Below the pieces are notes generated by a model. That model saw only the letters and a program-made list of their open reading frames with translations. It did not search any database and had not been told where the DNA came from. Position numbers and translations under genes: made by a program. Below, piece by piece: positions 1-7,865 of a stretch of 7,865 bases of DNA (its first letter is position 1; the number at the start of each line of letters is the position of its first letter). Origin of the DNA: Methanolinea sp. GTDB lineage: Archaea > Halobacteriota > Methanomicrobia > Methanomicrobiales > Methanospirillaceae. The DNA is taken from NCBI GenBank assembly GCA_013331225.1, contig DUGV01000209.1:1-7865 (forward strand), given 5' to 3'.

Positions 1-194
1 GGTTCTCCATCAAGGGGTTTGCCGGCGACACGACTGTCGAGGTGAGGTTCAAAAAAGAGGTGATGGACCTCACGGTGGACTTTGCCTACTCCCTCTTCTC
101 TTCGTTCAAGGATGAGAAGACCGATCTCTCCGGCCTGAAACAGCGGGAGGAGGCAGTCGCCGGGCGGGTCCGCCGACGCCGCCACGGGGAGTGA
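1..194 (+). CDS. C-terminal fragment of an unidentified protein
   Basis: The window opens inside a plus-strand reading frame that runs from base 3 without a stop to TGA at 192-194, giving 63 visible residues. The fragment starts FSIKGFAGDTTVEVRFKKEV and ends in a basic tail (RVRRRRHGE). It alternates a possible beta-strand (TVEVRF), an amphipathic helix (residues about 19-36) and a charged tail. No signal peptide, membrane segment or catalytic motif is visible in this piece. I do not recognise the family; a C-terminal regulatory or DNA-binding domain would fit the charge, but that is speculation. Its TGA overlaps the GTG start of the methyltransferase gene (GTGA at 191-194), which points to an operon with translational coupling. 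The reading frame is certain in outline; the identity is unknown. Confidence 0.7.
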   Translation, partial: FSIKGFAGDTTVEVRFKKEVMDLTVDFAYSLFSSFKDEKTDLSGLKQREEAVAGRVRRRRHGE

Positions 195-781
195 GCGGGG
201 GAATATTCGTGCCCGAAGATGTCTTCGAGCGGTATGCGGAGGACTATGACCTCTGGTTCGAGGAGCACCCCGCCGAGTACCGTTCAGAACTCGGCCGGGT
301 TCGCGCACTTTCCCCTCCCATAGCCCCCTTTTCCCTCGAAGTGGGAGCGGGATCGGGACGGTTTGCCGCACCGCTCGGGATCGGGCTCGGGGTCGAGCCC
401 TCGGTGGCGCTCTGCCGGATGGCGCGATGGAGGGGGATCGAGGTTATCCGGGCAATCGGCGAGGCAATCCCCTTCAGGGACGCATCCATCCCGTCAGTCC
501 TGATGGTGACCGTCATCTGCTTCCTGGAAGACCCCTCCCGGGTGCTCGCCGAACTGCAGCGAATCCTCGTCCCCGGGGGCGCTGTCGTGATTGCGTTCAT
601 CGAACGCGGCGGCCCAATACACCAAAAATACCTCTATGAGGGAGGGAAGGGACGATTTCTCTCCTGTGCACGCTTCTATACCAAGGAGGAGGTGTTATCT
701 CTCCTCGATAATAACGGGTTTTGGGTCACCGCTGTGGATCCCCGGGCAGGGTTCTGTGTCATCGCGGCGCAGAAGGGCTAA
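191..781 (+). CDS. Class I SAM-dependent methyltransferase
   Basis: A small Rossmann-fold methyltransferase of 196 residues, within the usual length for stand-alone members. The N-terminus (FERYAEDYDLWFEEHP, residues 12-27) is typical of the Methyltransf_11-like group. Motif I, EVGAGSGRF, lies at residues 50-58 and binds the SAM methionine. The acidic residue of motif II, which contacts the ribose, is E69 in GVEPS. Strand 4 and the post-motif region follow at about 100-112, then the LVPGGAVVIAF strand at about 126-136. The substrate (small molecule or protein) cannot be inferred. The first GTG (191) overlaps the TGA of the upstream gene. A second in-frame GTG at 209 (reading PEDVFERYA) lies nearer the conserved start, with GGGG at 197-200 and a GGAGTGA at 188-194 upstream, so the start is 191 or 209. 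It probably shares the upstream gene's transcript. Stop codon TAA. Confidence 0.88.
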   Translation: MSGGIFVPEDVFERYAEDYDLWFEEHPAEYRSELGRVRALSPPIAPFSLEVGAGSGRFAAPLGIGLGVEPSVALCRMARWRGIEVIRAIGEAIPFRDASIPSVLMVTVICFLEDPSRVLAELQRILVPGGAVVIAFIERGGPIHQKYLYEGGKGRFLSCARFYTKEEVLSLLDNNGFWVTAVDPRAGFCVIAAQKG

Positions 782-793
782 TCGGAGAGGGAT

Positions 794-873
794 TGGGTTT
801 TTGCCCAGATTGTCATTGGTTCCGGAATCAATCGACGACATTTGATTTTAATCCCACAATACCCCCTTTTTTT
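794..873 (+). terminator. Probable transcription termination region after the methyltransferase gene
   Basis: Two short dyads follow the methyltransferase stop. TGGG/CCCA (794-797/804-807) encloses a T5 run. ATTGGTTCCGGAATCAAT (815-832) is a palindrome apart from one G/A position. They are followed by T-rich DNA (841-849) and a T7 run at 867-873. Archaeal termination depends mainly on T-tracts in the non-template strand, so the T7 run is the best candidate; the palindrome could equally be an operator for the downstream gene. Confidence 0.4.
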
Positions 874-894
874 GCCGGCCGATTTTTCCGAGGC

Positions 895-949
895 ATTTAT
901 CCGCATTTGCGACGTTGATAGTAGTATTGCTGCCGGTAACTGGTGATCC
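895..949 (+). promoter_or_regulatory. Putative promoter and Shine-Dalgarno site of the STAS-kinase gene
   Basis: ATTTATCC at 895-902 is an acceptable archaeal TATA-like element, predicting a start of transcription near 922-926 and a leader of about 30 bases. GGTGATCC at 942-949 matches the complement of the archaeal 16S 3' end (GGATCACC). It sits correctly for the GTG at 953 and argues for that start over the ATG at 968. The TATA match is weak; the ribosome site is strong. Confidence 0.55.
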
Positions 950-952
950 CTG

Positions 953-2458
953 GTGAAGAGCGTAACGATGCGTGAAGGAGAAGTCATGGTCCTCTCCCTT
1001 GAGGGAAGGCTCGATGCGCAGGGGGCCGTGGAGATAGACGCGGTGCTGAAAGATCTCCTCCGTGAGACCGACAGCACGATAATCTTTGACATGTCGGGAG
1101 TCACCTACATGAGCAGCGCCGGCATCAGGACAATTGTTGCAACCGAGAAGAGGATGAAGGAGAGGGGCGGTCGAATCCACCTCTCATGTCTCCAGCCCTA
1201 TCCCCGCTCGGTCCTCGATATGACGGGTTTCTCTACCGTGCTCTCCATCCATTCCACCCGCAAAGAGGCGGTCCGGGCGGCAAGGGCAACGGTCGGACGG
1301 GAAATTGGAGTTCCCGGACACGCCCCTCTCGCCGTGCAGACCAGGGGCGCGGAGTTTGTTGCCACCTGCACGGGGCAGGATGCCTGCACCCTTGATATTA
1401 CCGGATTTCCCACCGATGAGAGGAGTGGAGGAAGGGACACTGGCCCCGCCATCCCAGTCACGATCCCCGTGTCCGCATGTTCCCTCGGATTCGGTTCACC
1501 AGGCCTCCCGGATGACGATGAGGAGAGCGCGATGGGGGACTTTTTGTCTGTCGGGCACATCGCGGCGTGGGTCCTCCCTGACAGCGGCGACACCCTCGAC
1601 TACCTGGTCCTCGAGAAGAATGTGGCAAGAATCCCGCTCGCCACCTCGTTTCTCATCTCTCCTTCCGCGCCACCCGGGTGCGAGGTCCGGGTGCATGCCG
1701 GATCACCGGGCGGAATCACGCTCTCGGATCTCTTCGATTCCCTCCATGAGATTGCAAAAGAGATGGATCCCCGCTACTGTGGTGTTCTCTGCACCTCGTT
1801 CTGCGCCGAATCTCCGGACGTGCAGACCCTCAATCCGGCGGAAGGCACGCCTCCAACTGCCACGCTCGCGGGATGTGCGGTTATTGTCGATGCTGCAGCC
1901 CTCCCGGATCACCTGGGGGGAGTGGTCACCGATGCGCTGGTCCGCCACCTTCCCGGAAGACCGGGCATCGTCCCACGGGCCACAGCGCTCGTCTTCCGGG
2001 ATCTCGCTGCAGGCGAGGGTGAGTCCGCCTGCGAGGCGGTCGCACGCGGGCTTTCCTCGGATGTGCAGGCGCTCCTCCGTCATCTCTCGCCCCGCACGAG
2101 GATATTTCAGGCGACTCTCCAGCTCTTCGTCATCTCCGACATCCGGCTTCATACCGGCACCACGATCGTCTTTGAGGGGGATGTCCCGGGATGGAACCCC
2201 GACTACGAGCGGATCACGAAGAGTGTTCACCATGACTGCTCGGAGGTGCGCCTCCACCCGATATCCGGCGGCTATTCCGGGTCGCTCGTCTTCCGCGACG
2301 ATGCCTACGACCGCAGCGGCAGGAGAGAGATGCCTTTTGTATTAAAACTCGACCGGTGGGAGAACATCCGGGCGGAGATCGAGGGGTACGAGGGGCATGT
2401 GAAACGGTATATCCAGAATAACGCGACCCAGATCATCCAGAAGGCGCGAAGCGGCTAG
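953..2458 (+). CDS. STAS domain-phosphotransferase fusion, part upstream of an in-frame TAG
   Basis: First 501 codons of a 780-codon frame (953-3295) broken only by TAG at 2456-2458. Residues 1-105 form a STAS domain like SpoIIAA/RsbV: strand VMVLSLEGRLDAQ, then DMSGVTYMSSAGIR at 46-59. By alignment to SpoIIAA (MDSSGLG, phosphoserine 58) the likely phospho-acceptor is S55. Residues about 106-165 look like a linker. Residues about 170-430 are an alpha/beta region I cannot assign. From about 436 a kinase N-lobe begins: Gly-rich loop SGGYSGS (438-444), candidate ATP-binding lysine K465 in FVLKLDR, and C-helix residues E470/E475. The TAG cuts after the C-helix, so this part alone would hold half a kinase. 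Start GTG is fixed by GGTGATCC at 942-949. In bacteria STAS proteins antagonise anti-sigma kinases; archaea have no such sigma factors, so the partner is unknown. Confidence 0.85.
   Translation: MKSVTMREGEVMVLSLEGRLDAQGAVEIDAVLKDLLRETDSTIIFDMSGVTYMSSAGIRTIVATEKRMKERGGRIHLSCLQPYPRSVLDMTGFSTVLSIHSTRKEAVRAARATVGREIGVPGHAPLAVQTRGAEFVATCTGQDACTLDITGFPTDERSGGRDTGPAIPVTIPVSACSLGFGSPGLPDDDEESAMGDFLSVGHIAAWVLPDSGDTLDYLVLEKNVARIPLATSFLISPSAPPGCEVRVHAGSPGGITLSDLFDSLHEIAKEMDPRYCGVLCTSFCAESPDVQTLNPAEGTPPTATLAGCAVIVDAAALPDHLGGVVTDALVRHLPGRPGIVPRATALVFRDLAAGEGESACEAVARGLSSDVQALLRHLSPRTRIFQATLQLFVISDIRLHTGTTIVFEGDVPGWNPDYERITKSVHHDCSEVRLHPISGGYSGSLVFRDDAYDRSGRREMPFVLKLDRWENIRAEIEGYEGHVKRYIQNNATQIIQKARSG
2456..2458 (+). 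other. In-frame amber codon (TAG) inside the STAS-kinase gene
   Basis: TAG is in frame with the GTG at 953 and with the downstream coding segment that runs to TGA at 3293-3295. The flanking residues read KARSG-TAG-YGGILYTFVG, joining the kinase C-helix to the expected strands 4 and 5 without a gap. It is the only lesion I see in 780 codons. The other complete genes here end in TAA or TGA, none in TAG, though the sample is small. Possible meanings are a sense or recoded codon (such as pyrrolysine), a fresh nonsense mutation (GAG, CAG, AAG and others are one base away), or a sequencing error. Confidence 0.9.
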
Positions 2459-3295
2459 TACGGCGGCATCCTCTACACGTTCGTCGGGATCCAGGGGCCC
2501 CAGAGCCGCATCTTCTCGCTCGAGGACTATTACCTCACCCATCCGACAGAAGAGGTGCTCGCGATCTTCGATATCCTCTTCAGGAGAGTGCTCAGGGCAT
2601 GGTACGGCCAGCCGCGGCTCCGGGACCTTCCCCTGTACGATGTCTACAGCGACATCTTCCGGTACGAGGATGTCCGCAGGTGGGCAGAATCCCGCTACAG
2701 CATCACCGCGGCGGACGAGACAATCGATCTCCCCTTCGGACTGGGGAGGTCGGCAAACCCCCTGCACTTCATGGAACACATTCTCCCGGACCGCCGATCG
2801 CGGACTTGGAGCGTGTACGAGGGGTCGGTCCACGGTGACCTGAACATGAAGAACGTGCTGATGGACGACGAGCAGAACCTCTGGTTGATCGACTTTGCGA
2901 TGACCGGGCACTCGCACATCCTGCGTGACGTCGCAAAACTTGAATCCGTGCTGAAGCTGGAGATGATTCCCATCGAGTCGCAGGAACGCCTCTTTGAGCT
3001 TGTCGCACTTGAGCAGGTCTTCCTGACCCCAAAAAAGCTCGGCGAGATCCCTTCGCTTCCCGAAGGTATCGCTGACCCGGATATCGCAAAGGCATTCCAG
3101 GTAGTCCATCAGCTCAGGCGGTACGCCGACACCATCACGCTGCTCGACGAGGACATCCTGCAGTATTACCTGGCGCTCCTCTATTACACGCTCTGTGTCC
3201 CAGCATTCGTGAGCGTAAATGATTACATGCGGGAGTATGCCTGGATCTCCTCGTCCCTCCTCTGCGAGGCCCTCCGGATACATGGGGAGCACTGA
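2459..3295 (+). CDS. APH-like kinase C-lobe, continuation of the STAS fusion after the TAG
   Basis: Codons 503-780 of the frame that begins at 953, open from just after the TAG to TGA at 3293-3295. The first in-frame start candidate is GTG at 2555, with no good ribosome site, and using it would drop 32 conserved-looking residues, so I treat this as the same gene. It supplies the C-lobe of an aminoglycoside/choline-kinase-type phosphotransferase. The catalytic loop VHGDLNMKNVLMD has H627, D629 (general base) and N634 (metal ligand). WLIDFAMTGHSHILRDVAKLE-type sequence from 644 carries the metal-binding D647 of the DFG-equivalent. All key residues are intact, so selection was acting until recently. 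From memory, the IDFA-TG-GH-LRD-A-LE pattern resembles kinase-like domains in bacterial multi-domain conflict or signalling proteins (the TCAD9 family is one to test). Substrate unknown; phosphorylation of the fused STAS serine is a hypothesis. Confidence 0.82.
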   Translation, partial: YGGILYTFVGIQGPQSRIFSLEDYYLTHPTEEVLAIFDILFRRVLRAWYGQPRLRDLPLYDVYSDIFRYEDVRRWAESRYSITAADETIDLPFGLGRSANPLHFMEHILPDRRSRTWSVYEGSVHGDLNMKNVLMDDEQNLWLIDFAMTGHSHILRDVAKLESVLKLEMIPIESQERLFELVALEQVFLTPKKLGEIPSLPEGIADPDIAKAFQVVHQLRRYADTITLLDEDILQYYLALLYYTLCVPAFVSVNDYMREYAWISSSLLCEALRIHGEH

Positions 3296-3547
3296 TCTGC
3301 GACGAATCGCTATGGCAGGGTTTTTGAGGGATTGCTGTCCAGAGGCATCGGATAAGAGTTCCCTTTTCGCAGGGCTGCTGATGCGTGAGACATCACTCAT
3401 CCAGACGAACCTTCCAGAGCGGTGCTGCCACCTCCATCACCGGTATCTTGTGTGTTCTCTCCTCCTGCAATACGAATACAGGTACTCGTAAAAGTGCACC
3501 GGACGCGGGTGTGGACTGGCATAAACGCAGTCGGGCATGCCCATTTG

Positions 3548-3566
3548 TTGTATTGTACAAATACAA
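3548..3566. repeat. Inverted repeat, candidate operator
   Basis: TTGTATT and AATACAA form perfect 7-base arms around a 5-base centre. Both the symmetry and the position, about 50 bases upstream of the DUF350 gene's TATA-like box, suit a dimeric regulator. No regulator gene is adjacent, and a chance occurrence is possible. Confidence 0.4.
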
Positions 3567-3608
3567 GCAAACACGTCGGATTTGTAACATTACGCAGCGA
3601 TTGTTTGC

Positions 3609-3651
3609 GGAAATGAATTTAAGCCCTCATCCCCATGGATCCTCTGAGGTG
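3609..3651 (+). promoter_or_regulatory. Promoter and ribosome binding site of the DUF350 gene
   Basis: GGAAA (3609-3613) resembles a BRE and GAATTTAAG (3615-3623) a TATA box, centred about 39 bases before the ATG. That predicts transcription from about 3645 and a very short leader. GAGGTG at 3646-3651 is a good Shine-Dalgarno sequence six bases before the ATG at 3658. If the transcript starts near 3645, nearly the whole leader is the ribosome site. Confidence 0.6.
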
Positions 3652-3657
3652 TAACAG

Positions 3658-4140
3658 ATGGATATAGTAAACGCATTCGTTGGACTGATTCAGCTCGTCA
3701 TCGCCATAATCCTGGCAGTAGCAGCCCTCTACATCGGGTACGCCACGTTCTCGAAGATCACCAAGGGAATGGACGAGGCCGCTGAACTCAGAAAAGGCAA
3801 TGTCGCGGTGGGCATCGTCATCGCCTCCATCCTCTTTGCCATCGCTATCGTGGTACAGTCCGGGATCGCCGGGATCTCCATAGGTATCATGAACGCTCTT
3901 GCAGGGGACTGGTTCTCGCTCATCGCCGCAGTCATCCAGCTGATCCTCGGCATCATCCTTGCCGTCGCGGTCAGCTACTTTGCGCTGCACGTCATGGACC
4001 GGCTCACGAAGGGACTCAACGAGTTCGAGGAATTGAAGAAAGGAAATGTCGCGGTTGCCCTCCTGATGGCAGGAGTCATCATTGCGACCGCAGTCATCAT
4101 CCAGTCCGGGGTCATCGGCATCACCTCGGCACTCATATAA
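3658..4140 (+). CDS. DUF350 membrane protein with tandem duplicated unit
   Basis: A 160-residue, very hydrophobic protein of two homologous halves with four predicted membrane helices. Each half has a helix (IQLVIAIILAVA at 11-22; IQLILGIILAVA at 93-104), a charged cytosolic-type connector (TKGMDEAAELRKGNVAV; TKGLNEFEELKKGNVAV) and a second helix ending in QSGI or QSGV. Matching motifs (KGNVAV at 46 and 128, QSG at 67 and 149) keep an exact 82-residue offset. KGNVAVA followed by a helix is the hallmark of DUF350 (YjfL-type) inner-membrane proteins, whose function is not established. The ATG at 3658 is supported by GAGGTG. The gene is monocistronic as far as can be seen and converges on the next gene, another small membrane protein. 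A role in envelope or osmotic stress is a guess from the neighbour only. Confidence 0.88.
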   Translation: MDIVNAFVGLIQLVIAIILAVAALYIGYATFSKITKGMDEAAELRKGNVAVGIVIASILFAIAIVVQSGIAGISIGIMNALAGDWFSLIAAVIQLILGIILAVAVSYFALHVMDRLTKGLNEFEELKKGNVAVALLMAGVIIATAVIIQSGVIGITSALI

Positions 4141-4160
4141 CCCAACAATATTTTTATTGA

Positions 4161-4197
4161 CCTGTAGCGTCAGGCGCCAGGGTTGCCCTGCGACAGG
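4161..4197 (+). repeat. Extended imperfect hairpin downstream of the DUF350 gene
   Basis: The outer stem is CCTGT/ACAGG (4161-4165/4193-4197). The inner stem is CAGGG/CCCTG (4178-4182/4186-4190) closing a TTG loop, with a possible CG/CG step between them. It lies just past the T5 run and may define the 3' end of the mRNA or protect it; this is inferred from symmetry only. Confidence 0.4.
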
Positions 4198-4330
4198 TTG
4201 CGGAAAGCGAATTCCCCGCCTTCCGGTCGTTCATGGCTTTCCCCGGCGACTCTATTCTCCTTCAGCCACCGCTATTCAGGCATGATGAATGGATTCCCAT
4301 TATCGTATCCGATAAGAGACTGTGCGTATA

Positions 4331-4347
4331 CTCCCGGTTATCGGGAG
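4331..4347. repeat. Perfect hairpin downstream of the minus-strand channel-like gene
   Basis: CTCCCG (4331-4336) and CGGGAG (4342-4347) form a perfect 6-base stem with loop GTTAT. Read on the minus strand it lies about 27 bases beyond a T7 run (4380-4374), so it may contribute to termination or 3' processing of the gene ending at 4387. Confidence 0.4.
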
Positions 4348-4373
4348 AGGATGAATGCTGCAATGGCAGAGGG

Positions 4374-4380
4374 AAAAAAA
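4374..4380 (-). terminator. T-tract terminator of the MscS-type TM-helix gene
   Basis: A7 on the plus strand is a T7 run in the non-template strand of the minus-strand gene, starting 7 bases after its TAA stop. Archaeal RNA polymerase terminates at such runs of five or more T without needing a hairpin. Confidence 0.5.
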
Positions 4381-4386
4381 GGGGAA

Positions 4387-5085
4387 TTACTTGATGATCT
4401 TCTTCAGCATGTTGTCTATCATCTCAGGGGCACGGTCCTTTAAGCCAAATGCCAGGAACACCGCGACGCCGACACCAACTCCAATCCCCACACCCCATGC
4501 AATCGGCGTGATGAACGTGTAGATGATTGTAAGGTCGATCAGCAGCTGGGAGAGCGCGAGAATCAGGACCACGAAGTAGAAGAATACCCGCAGCAGCATG
4601 ATGATGACACCAAGGAACTCGATATTCTGGGTCTTTCCCCATGCATGCATCAGGTCCGAGAAGTAGTCGACGATGACGAACCCTGCAACCAGGATGATAA
4701 GGAACATCGCGACGTGGGGCATGTAGAGGATGATCTTCTCGAAGAGTTCGCTGATGAATCCGATCTGAAGGACGCTTGCCGCGGCGGCGATTGCAATCAG
4801 GTAGATGAACCATCTGACAATGAGATCAAAGAGCCGTACAATATGCATTCCCGTCCCTTCAATCGCCTTTCCAAGGCTGGTCTTCCGGAGTGCGTCGTCA
4901 ACTCCCACCTTGTCGAGGATCTTCGATACGAGAGAACCGAGAACCCGGCCGACAACCCACCCGATGAGCAGGATGATGATTGCTGCAATGAGGTATGGGA
5001 TGTATGCGACAACCGAGGAGAACATCTGGGTCAGGGAATCACCGAGGGAGGTCATGGTCTGTGTAGCTATGTCTGTTGTTGCCAT
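4387..5085 (-). CDS. MscS-type conserved TM-helix membrane protein
   Basis: A 232-residue protein beginning MATTDIATQTM, with about five membrane helices. Numbering from this start, they lie near 24-47, 90-108, 122-142, 159-182 and 187-213. The segment IPYLIAAIIILLIGWVVGRV followed by LGSLVSKILDKVGVDD is a clear match to the 'conserved TM helix' family (PF05552) that precedes MscS channels. The last helix and GLKDRAPEMI resemble the entry to the MscS pore helix, but the soluble beta domain of a full MscS is absent. It is therefore more likely an accessory or channel-like protein than a complete mechanosensitive channel. A longer reading from GTG at 5112 (9 more residues) is possible. The TATA box GTTAAATAC (5123-5115) predicts transcription from about 5093, inside that extension, which favours ATG 5085. 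Convergent with the DUF350 gene. Stop TAA. Confidence 0.82.
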   Translation of the reverse strand: MATTDIATQTMTSLGDSLTQMFSSVVAYIPYLIAAIIILLIGWVVGRVLGSLVSKILDKVGVDDALRKTSLGKAIEGTGMHIVRLFDLIVRWFIYLIAIAAAASVLQIGFISELFEKIILYMPHVAMFLIILVAGFVIVDYFSDLMHAWGKTQNIEFLGVIIMLLRVFFYFVVLILALSQLLIDLTIIYTFITPIAWGVGIGVGVGVAVFLAFGLKDRAPEMIDNMLKKIIK

Positions 5086-5114
5086 AACGATCAAAACCCC
5101 AATAAGGGACACGA

Positions 5115-5137
5115 GTATTTAACAATATTCCACGTGG
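5115..5137 (-). promoter_or_regulatory. TATA box with adjacent CCACGTGG palindrome
   Basis: On the minus strand, GTTAAATAC (5123-5115) is a good TATA box, giving a predicted leader of about 8 bases before ATG 5085. The perfect 8-base palindrome CCACGTGG (5130-5137) sits immediately upstream of the BRE position. A protein bound there could touch or block TFB, so it is a plausible operator. The only weak ribosome signal is TGATC at about 5092-5088. Confidence 0.5.
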
Positions 5138-5447
5138 CATACGTTTCCAATTAATATTTTGAAAACTCCAGCCCAGATTCCGGTTTCACGCGACGGAATA
5201 GGTGAACGGCGGAATCAACTGAATGGCAGGCGTTCCGCACAACAATAGGTAAAATCCCGGGATCATGGAGCGTGTCGCAAAGGGAGATGCCTTTTCATTG
5301 AGAAAGGTCAGGGGTCACATCATCCGTGTTCGGATGGGACACGTGTAATGATGACGATCATGTGAAGGGTAGAGTGTCCTCTTTCGTCAATTGCCAGGAA
5401 TATACCGGGTAGCATCTCGAAAAATGAGGAAATTAATATGGTTCTGA
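5138..5447. other. Dyad-rich non-coding region between the two minus-strand genes
   Basis: No coding region is supported. There are many short perfect inverted repeats: ATTCCG/CGGAAT (5177-5182/5194-5199), GCGGAA/TTCCGC (5209-5214/5233-5238) and ATCCCGGGAT (5254-5263). Further right are CCTTT/AAAGG (5290-5294/5303-5307), CATCCG/CGGATG with a TGTT loop (5321-5336), ACACGTGT (5339-5346) and ATGAT/ATCAT with loop GACG (5348-5361). TTAATATTTTG at 5151-5161 could act as a TATA element for plus-strand transcription across them. A small RNA or regulatory array is possible; neither is proven. A T5 run on the minus strand (plus-strand AAAAA at 5420-5424) could terminate the DUF937 gene. Confidence 0.4.
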
Positions 5448-6023
5448 TTATTTCCCGAGGAATTTTTTGAAGATTCCCGAGACGCCGGCTGCCTCTTTCT
5501 GCGATCCCAGCATCTGCTCTGCCATGCGTGCGGCATCCGGTGATGACTGCATCGCCATCTTCGACTGCTCGCCGAGGAGGCTGGTGAGGCCCTGCTGGTC
5601 CATCTGTTTGCCACCCATGCTCTTCGTGACGTACCCCATGACCATCGGGGTCGCGATGGCGAGGATCTTTTCAACCACTGCAGAGGGAAGACCGGTCTTC
5701 TGTGCAATCGCATTCGAGATCGGCGCCATCTGGCTTCCGAGAAGGCTGCTTGCCATCCCGGATCCCCCGGATGCGGCTGAACTGCCAAGGAAGCCACCCA
5801 GGTTATCAAGGGGGTTACTCCCTCCCATCTGCCCCATCATTGACGTGATCATGTCTGCTCCACCCGGTTTCTGTGAGGTCTGTGCCATGGAGCCCATGAT
5901 CATCGGAAGGCCCATACCAAGTGCGGACTGCACACTCTTCTCATCCGAACCGACAGATTTGCTGATCATGGAGAGATTGTCTCCCGTCGCTACCTGTTTC
6001 ATGAGATCTGCTACTATGTTCAT
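5448..6023 (-). CDS. DUF937 family protein
   Basis: 191 residues, rich in Met, Gly and Ser, matching DUF937 (PF06078, YidB-like). The family pattern of helical repeats with LP-IMG is visible twice: VQSALGMGLPMIMGSMAQ at 31-48 and VEKILAIATPMVMGYVTKS at 117-135. They are separated by a Gly/Ser-rich segment (about 53-98, PGGADMITSMMGQMGG and GGFLGSSAASGGSG). The C-terminus ends GIFKKFLGK. There is no signal peptide or convincing membrane helix, so it is probably cytoplasmic. Family function is not established. The ATG at 6021-6023 has no Shine-Dalgarno sequence, and the TATA box lies only about 29 bases upstream, so the mRNA is probably leaderless. Stop TAA. The next gene downstream on this strand has its own promoter, so the gene looks monocistronic. 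Confidence 0.85.
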   Translation of the reverse strand: MNIVADLMKQVATGDNLSMISKSVGSDEKSVQSALGMGLPMIMGSMAQTSQKPGGADMITSMMGQMGGSNPLDNLGGFLGSSAASGGSGMASSLLGSQMAPISNAIAQKTGLPSAVVEKILAIATPMVMGYVTKSMGGKQMDQQGLTSLLGEQSKMAMQSSPDAARMAEQMLGSQKEAAGVSGIFKKFLGK

Positions 6024-6047
6024 ACTGCAGGAGAATACGCGATGGAA

Positions 6048-6055
6048 CTTATATA
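6048..6055 (-). promoter_or_regulatory. Consensus TATA box of the DUF937 gene
   Basis: TATATAAG on the minus strand (6055-6048) is close to the archaeal consensus and the strongest promoter element in the window. With the usual distance of 25-27 bases from box centre to transcription start, the mRNA would begin at about 6025-6027, almost at the ATG (6023). No ribosome binding sequence lies in the few leader bases. Confidence 0.7.
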
Positions 6056-6136
6056 CCTATGTGTAAGGTCAATTGGTTGACGAAAATTACCACAGCATGC
6101 AGAGGTATCTCACGATGCAACCCGGGAAATCCTCGC

Positions 6137-6142
6137 AAAAAT
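6137..6142 (-). terminator. Possible T-tract terminator after the PKD gene
   Basis: Plus-strand AAAAAT (6137-6142) reads as ATTTTT on the minus strand, about 20 bases after the TGA of the PKD gene. Short, but of the type used by archaeal RNA polymerase; no hairpin is needed or obvious. Confidence 0.3.
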
Positions 6143-6160
6143 AAGGGAGGAGTCCGACCA

Positions 6161-7865
6161 TCACCTCACGTATATGCGGCGTGAGGTGGTGCTCTCCCCG
6201 TGCGTATTCGCCACCTTGAGGGAAACCGAATACGTCCCCGGAATTATGAACGTGTGGGACGGGCTCCTGATAGTCGAGGTCTGGCCATCGCCAAAGTTCC
6301 AGTCCCACGAGGTCGGGCCATTGAAGGACATGTCAGTAAACGCAACAGTCATCGGGGCAAACCCAATGCTTTTACTCACCATGAAGAAGGAGATTGGAGC
6401 CCGGCCCGGCATCAGCGGAGGCGCAGGCGTTGCAGTGGCCGTGGGAGCGGCAGTTCCCGAAGAAGACGTGGTGACGGGCAGGAACACGGTAGACGCCGAT
6501 CTCACGAAGACATAGGAAGAGTGCGAATTGCTCCCGCCATGGTTGAAGACTCTCAGGGTGACCGTGTAAGTCCCGGTCCCGGTATAGGTGTGCACAGGGT
6601 TCTGCTCCGTGGAGGTGGTTCCATCCCCGAAGTTCCACTCCCACGCAAGTGGCGTCCCCATCGAGCGGTCAGTAAAGGCAACGGTCAACGGAGCAATACC
6701 AGACATCGGCCTCATCGTGAAGAATGCCATGGGAGGTGCACCGGATGACGACACCTGGATGTATCCTGGCTTTGTAACTGTCTCCTGTCCCGCGGCATTG
6801 CCAACCGTCAGCGAGACGGTGTAGGGGCCGGGGAAGGGATACGTGTGATCGACATCCGTGCTCTCGTTGCGCCATTCATTCGTCCCATCCCCAAAGTCCC
6901 ACAGCCGGGAGGTGACGAGGCCTGTCGAGGTGTCGGTAAAGGCAATGCCAAGTGGCGCACTCCCTGACAGCGGGCTGGCCTCGAAGTCAGGGACCGGGGG
7001 CAGGGACTGCGTAACATTGATGAACCCTTCCTTTGTGAGCGTGCTGTTGCCGTACGCGCTCGTTACGGTCAGAGTGACGTTATAGAGGCCGGGGGCATCA
7101 AAGGTATGATACAGCCAGCTCCCGCTCCCTGTTGTCCCGTCACCAAAGTCCCAGAGGAATTCGTCATAACACCAGGAATATGGAACCATCTCCCAGAACT
7201 CTACCTCAAGGGGCGCATCGCCCTCCATTGGGTATGCATTGAAGTCTGCTTCCGGTGCAGGGGGATCGACCTGGATGTACCCCTCTTTCGTGACGGTGTC
7301 TGTCTCACCGGTCCTGCTGACGGTAAGGCTCACCGAGTAGTTCCCAGGGGAGGTGTAGATGACAACCGGGTCTTTCTCGGCCGAGAATTCGTTGCCTAAA
7401 TAGGGAATTGCCTGTTTCGTTGCGGCATCGCGCAACAGGTAGTACGAGTCTTTCTGGAACACCCATGACCATGAACTCGGGCTTCCAGTTGAAGTATCAT
7501 AAAACTGGACGGTGACAGGGACTGCCCCAATGGTGAGGTTGGAGGTGAAATTCGCCTTCAGGGGCTCATCCTTTGTGACCTTGATATATTTCTCCCTGCA
7601 TTCTGTGCTCGACCCGGCGGAGTTCGTGACCGTAAGTGTCACGTTGTAGGTTCCGGCCGAGACGTACGTATGTACATTTTCCTTCTTGGTCGAATACGTC
7701 CCGTCACCAAAGTCCCAGTAATACGAGAGATGACCTCCTGTTGACTGGTCCGCAAATATGACCGAGAGTGGTTCATCGCCGCTTCGTGGAATCGCGAAGA
7801 AATCGGCGACGGGCGGTTCCGGATCAGGAGTCGTCGCAACCCATACCTGGCACCCCGCAAACGGG
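6161..7865 (-). CDS. Multi-PKD-domain surface protein, 5' end beyond the window
   Basis: Open from the right edge to TGA (6163-6161): 567 visible residues, with no start in view. The codon at 7642 is an internal GTG within a PKD strand, not a start. Six PKD (polycystic kidney disease) beta-sandwich domains follow one another, at about 7810-7577, 7558-7268, 7252-7013, 6991-6752, 6727-6503 and 6397-6164. Five carry the WDFGDGT or WNFGDG signature followed by HTY or HTF; the second has WVFQKDS and an enlarged loop instead. A Thr/Pro/Ser-rich linker (6502-6401) separates domain 6. PKD arrays are common in exported archaeal cell-surface or S-layer-associated proteins and mediate protein or polysaccharide contacts. 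The C-terminus stops at the end of PKD6 with no membrane anchor or sorting signal. Any enzymatic or signal-peptide part lies outside the window. Confidence 0.9.
   Translation of the reverse strand, partial: PFAGCQVWVATTPDPEPPVADFFAIPRSGDEPLSVIFADQSTGGHLSYYWDFGDGTYSTKKENVHTYVSAGTYNVTLTVTNSAGSSTECREKYIKVTKDEPLKANFTSNLTIGAVPVTVQFYDTSTGSPSSWSWVFQKDSYYLLRDAATKQAIPYLGNEFSAEKDPVVIYTSPGNYSVSLTVSRTGETDTVTKEGYIQVDPPAPEADFNAYPMEGDAPLEVEFWEMVPYSWCYDEFLWDFGDGTTGSGSWLYHTFDAPGLYNVTLTVTSAYGNSTLTKEGFINVTQSLPPVPDFEASPLSGSAPLGIAFTDTSTGLVTSRLWDFGDGTNEWRNESTDVDHTYPFPGPYTVSLTVGNAAGQETVTKPGYIQVSSSGAPPMAFFTMRPMSGIAPLTVAFTDRSMGTPLAWEWNFGDGTTSTEQNPVHTYTGTGTYTVTLRVFNHGGSNSHSSYVFVRSASTVFLPVTTSSSGTAAPTATATPAPPLMPGRAPISFFMVSKSIGFAPMTVAFTDMSFNGPTSWDWNFGDGQTSTIRSPSHTFIIPGTYSVSLKVANTHGESTTSRRIYVR

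Follow-up and report, generated by a model that had tools for sequence, protein, structure and literature searches.

We describe a gene for a predicted STAS-domain kinase, interrupted by a single in-frame TAG, in a 7,865-nucleotide stretch of a Methanolinea sp. metagenome-assembled genome (MAG; assembly GCA_013331225.1, contig DUGV01000209.1, positions 1 to 7,865; hereafter the window). Judged by comparison with related sequences, the TAG is probably a recent single-base nonsense mutation that has left a null allele of the STAS-kinase gene. A preliminary description of the window had offered three readings of the stop: a translated UAG, a nonsense mutation or an error in the sequence. Recoding of UAG 502 finds no support, as none of the genes for pyrrolysine (Pyl) use that were sought exceeds its cut-off in the genomes searched, TAG is a common stop and relatives have a sense residue at the site; the other two readings stand as a pair. 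A doubtful lead for pyrrolysine in the Methanoregulaceae is thereby removed.

A TAG within a conserved STAS-kinase frame

Translation of positions 953-3295 gave a frame running from GTG 953 to TGA 3293-3295, with 780 codons plus the terminal TGA and exactly one internal stop, a TAG at codon 502 (2456-2458) flanked by KARSG and YGGILYTFVG. The coordinates in the preliminary description were thus right. A conserved frame of this length with a single stop is not a matter of chance. Like the family that combines STAS with a TCAD9 (PF19974)/APH-like kinase, the read-through frame exceeds the Pfam cut-offs for both domains (TCAD9, 171.3 bits against a cut-off of 40; STAS, 63.6 against 22.6); unlike that family, the allele in the window breaks off ahead of HGD, N and DF. 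When the two parts are taken alone, both match TCAD9, the part before the TAG its start (E = 9.5e-14) and the part after it the rest (6.9e-31); the former also matches STAS (9.1e-18) and the latter APH (6.7e-06). The stop splits the kinase signature, as had been noticed earlier, with K465 and E475 before it and the invariant H627, D629, N634 and D647 all downstream; each of these residues is identical in 39 of 39 homologues.

The homologues came from a search of 5.8 billion proteins, in which the 7,994 candidates with the most words in common were scored and 42 matched at E 1e-10; P0040-P0042, which are distant and of other architecture, were left out and 39 (P0001-P0039) were kept. Column 502 holds Asp in 21, Glu in 14, Asn in 2, Gly in 1 and Ala in 1, and is acidic in 35 of the 39. 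The rule proposed earlier, that a conserved Glu, Lys or Gln at this position, along with common TAG stops and no pyl genes, would mark a nonsense mutation, does not hold in its detail: neither Lys nor Gln occurs here and Asp is commonest. P0001, whose cluster has 28 member sequences, is 99% identical to the window protein over 775 amino acids, with six differences including Glu at 502. In the nearest named relative, Methanoregulaceae archaeon PtaB.Bin056 (locus L039, the same place as G008:C38), the gene is intact, the protein is 89% identical and codon 502 encodes Glu, one base from TAG.

Stops are visible in six-frame searches, and we searched 232 genomes of the order in this way (E 1e-60). 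The gene was matched in 17 of the 232, partially in 6 of these 17, and in 6 of the 13 genomes of the genus, counts that are lower bounds because many genomes are incomplete MAGs. An internal TAG appeared only in the genome of the window itself (G000), the exact sites not being listed. By these matches, the STAS-kinase gene is patchily held. A TGA flagged in the copy of genome G007, another member of the genus, is not a mid-gene stop, as it follows LLCNALK where the alignment reaches its C-terminal end, and the stop flagged in the G004 copy was absent from the tblastn alignment over residues 7-774. Separately, the G007 copy changes frame around residues 151-161 (L015:1460-1540, G007:C52), where there are no Ns, and its sequence is likely that of a second broken gene copy, or an error.

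Nonsense mutation or assembly error

The gene resembles a nonsense (amber) allele or recent pseudogene in having one stop in a conserved frame, a sense residue in relatives and constraint downstream; the sense codon lies one base away in PtaB.Bin056, and no further stop or decay follows the TAG. The ratio of nonsynonymous to synonymous substitution (dN/dS) against L039 is 0.255 upstream of the TAG and 0.212 downstream, and the lack of decay in the latter part means that the stop is either recent or not real. Provided that the organism itself carries this base, as we infer, a single-base change would have turned sense codon 502 into TAG and translation would end at residue 501. The 501-residue product would be inactive as a kinase, being without the catalytic loop (HGD, N) and the IDF motif, and the 3′ part would not be made unless a ribosome restarted. 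The patchy holding of the gene in the order and genus, together with the frame break in G007, makes its loss plausible. A real stop would give a naturally occurring null allele of a regulatory kinase that only some genomes carry, and its interest would be local.

Several points weigh against the nonsense mutation. The dN/dS test excludes only an old pseudogene; the 39 homologues are database predictions, in which a stop cannot show, so that only the genome searches test whether the TAG is shared; and the MAG is in 304 contigs, 67.8% complete and has many NN joins, so that a single base could be a consensus error. The last point leads to the serious rival, possible rather than probable in our estimate, that the assembly is in error at the TAG, through its consensus or through a minority strain, and that most of the living population has a sense codon there and a kinase that works. 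Consistent with this, the difference is a single base in a gene otherwise under constraint, an intact protein of 99% identity exists (P0001, in its 28-member cluster), and the NN joins of this fragmented MAG already break frames artificially in other genes. An error would make the case a warning on reading single stops in fragmented MAGs.

The error load of the assembly, on the other hand, argues against it. We compared 595 open reading frames (ORFs) from 60 stretches of G008 with 80 of the 304 G000 contigs. Internal stops were first listed 16 times, and the 15 besides the window TAG were set aside. High-scoring segment pairs (HSPs) were kept where changes fell mainly at third positions, where there was no overlap with a better HSP and where changes were numerous enough, which left 126 non-overlapping coding HSPs (37,383 codons), five of them with a stop. 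The window TAG is the sole mid-gene stop away from a gap that we judged true in this set. Among the stops that the filter removed are that of L133_11050 and a further TAG, within a match of 65 residues. Those of L179_2785 and L133_14189 lie in shadow frames, judged by eye, with a likelier gene in another frame, and that of L119 lies in a PheS fragment with an NN within 100 bases. The stop of L156_6121, 33 residues into a 497-amino-acid frame, was judged to precede the true start, in an over-long N-terminus, although this is not proven. Frameshift candidates numbered seven, six of them at NN joins (L121 twice, L101 twice, L049 and the PKD gene of the window contig, NN 7866); the seventh, L133_15148, is a weak N-terminal match with no N. 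The 80 sampled loci contain 66 runs of N, five of which are whole masked contigs, and the NN nearest to the TAG is 5.4 kb away. The base-level quality of the G000 sample thus looks fair, which tilts the balance to a real allele, although this is a single base of a MAG.

Other forms of readthrough (by a near-cognate or suppressor tRNA) or a restart, for example at GTG 2555, would produce truncated kinase mixed, in a regulated way, with full or split kinase, and strike us as very unlikely. GTG 2555 does open a 246-amino-acid frame with the HGD motif, with nothing direct in favour of its use; a restart there would fall within the predicted kinase fold, past the stretch with K465 and E475, and the stop is absent from the other genomes with the gene. 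Harder still to credit is UAG 502 as a regulatory switch, in which partial, non-pyrrolysine readthrough would yield a mixture of kinase-less STAS protein and full STAS-kinase; if true, stop-codon readthrough would set a partner-switching signal in a methanogen.

Pyrrolysine decoding and TAG usage

An in-frame UAG in a methanogen gene is a feature that the window shares with pyrrolysine decoding in Methanosarcina and Methanomassiliicoccales. In favour of this reading, by which the protein would be full length, the frame continues to either side of the stop, with constraint on each half. A check for pyl genes had been proposed in the preliminary description. We searched for PylS, PylD and Pyl-type MttB in 41 genomes (that of the window, 12 from its genus, a further 12 from the family and a further 16 from the order) and for PylC in 13 (that of the window, 8 from the genus and 4 from the order); among those of the genus are genomes with a stated completeness of 99-100% (G002, G004, G006 and G011). 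Every genome searched fell below the curated cut-offs: 0/41 for PylS (weak matches in 41/41, the best with 35.9 of 178.15 bits), 0/41 for PylD (weak matches in 3/41, best 21 of 150 bits; PylB was not searched) and 0/13 for PylC (weak matches in 13/13, best 52 of 248.3 bits). Pyl-type MttB was likewise over its cut-off in 0/41 (MtmB and MtbB were not searched). Among 14 control genomes, one exceeded the cut-off in each search; it is named as Methanosarcina acetivorans only in the MttB search, and M. acetivorans is listed among the responding controls in the searches for PylS, PylD and PylC.

The weak matches make for a less clean result, as matches to the PylS C-terminal model and to PylC also occur in 13/14 and 14/14 controls, respectively; we take them as related synthetases and ligases. 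G000 has two weak matches to the PylS model, in contigs C108 and C215. The former is a phenylalanyl-tRNA synthetase fragment to judge by its counterpart in G008, which NCBIfam names phenylalanine--tRNA ligase alpha. A CUA anticodon was found in none of 14 tRNAs detected by ARAGORN (77 of the 80 sampled contigs, 2 masked, of a 304-contig, 68% complete MAG). For the whole MAG, Rfam gives 19 tRNAs, five of them without an assigned anticodon, and about a third of the genome is missing; absence in G000 alone is accordingly weak, and the claim about pyl genes rests on the relatives.

TAG proved to be in everyday use as a stop. It ends 47 of 353 non-overlapping ORFs of at least 150 amino acids in the G000 sample (80 of 304 contigs, 516 kb; 503 kb without five masked contigs) and 53 of 482 such ORFs in the G008 sample. 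Where 83 gene ends were aligned between the two genomes, using queries not filtered for shadow frames, 11 were TAG in G000, and in 10 of the 83 pairs one species had TAG where the other had TAA or TGA. In an excerpt of PMC4153887, the share of TAG stops is given as ~4-5% in Methanosarcina and 1.6% in Candidatus M. alvus. The same excerpt gives 11.3% for the Pyl-using M. luminyensis, so the TAG share is supportive rather than decisive. In contrast to the known pyrrolysine decoders, then, the genomes searched have no pyl gene or Pyl-type MttB over cut-off, TAG is common, and the stop is not common to relatives, which mostly have Asp or Glu at 502, with TAG there in no other genome in which the gene was matched. 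We regard the reading of this UAG as pyrrolysine as highly improbable.

Predicted protein and neighbouring genes

In the predicted truncated product of 501 amino acids, the STAS domain is retained, along with an SSAG motif that starts at residue 54, and the HGD, N and DF motifs are lost. We take HGD, N and IDF to be the catalytic motifs, the first two in the catalytic loop. When the intact relative P0002 was modelled (mean predicted local distance difference test (pLDDT) score 86.3), residue 502 was placed in a turn between strands 494-500 and 503-508. Compared by sequence with solved structures, the family profile matches STAS proteins and, weakly, the Rio2 kinase (E 0.0018). The best Foldseek rows for the predicted fold are SpoIIAA-type STAS proteins and APH kinases, and the kinase-like resemblance of the modelled relative extends to the lexapeptide kinase LxmK. 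The predicted three-domain layout of the intact protein is more unusual than the stop itself. Literature on TCAD9 and on STAS phosphotransferases of methanogens contained, by title, nothing on this family among the matches listed.

Table 1 Positions of the interrupted gene and of the other genes in the window
Feature	Position	Strand	Evidence or content
5′ part of STAS-kinase gene	953..2455	+	STAS domain (residues 9-106), middle domain, start of TCAD9/APH-like kinase with K465 and E475
In-frame TAG, codon 502	2456..2458	+	Translation; homologue column; Glu codon in nearest named relative
3′ part, rest of kinase	2459..3295	+	HGD 627-629, N634, IDF 646-648; ends at TGA 3293-3295
Other gene	191-781		Ends in TAA
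Other gene	3658-4140		Ends in TAA
Other gene	4387-5112	minus	Ends in TAA
Other gene	5448-6023	minus	Ends in TAA
PKD gene	6161	minus	Ends in TGA; 5′ end beyond window

The other genes of the window end in TAA or TGA (Table 1), and the earlier remark that none of them uses TAG was correct. With so few genes, and with TAG common in the sampled contigs, this means little. The PtaB.Bin056 locus is collinear, with a methyltransferase gene, the kinase gene, a 160-amino-acid gene, a gene that we assume to be DUF937-like and the PKD gene. Only the minus-strand gene at 4387-5112, encoding a membrane protein of 241 amino acids, had no match at E 1e-5 in that locus. By eye, its product is presumably mechanosensitive-channel-like. 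Its absence from the locus of the nearest relative may reflect a lineage-specific gain or loss.

An NN scaffold join (7866; contig C80, L047:7866-7867) directly follows the last base of the window and cuts the PKD gene, and a further NN lies at 9558-9559. Elsewhere in the genome, on contig C291 of G000, a STAS-matching stretch adjoins a 5TMR/SpoIIE-phosphatase gene (L049:2654-4358), a pairing whose gene content suggests a partner-switching module in this organism.
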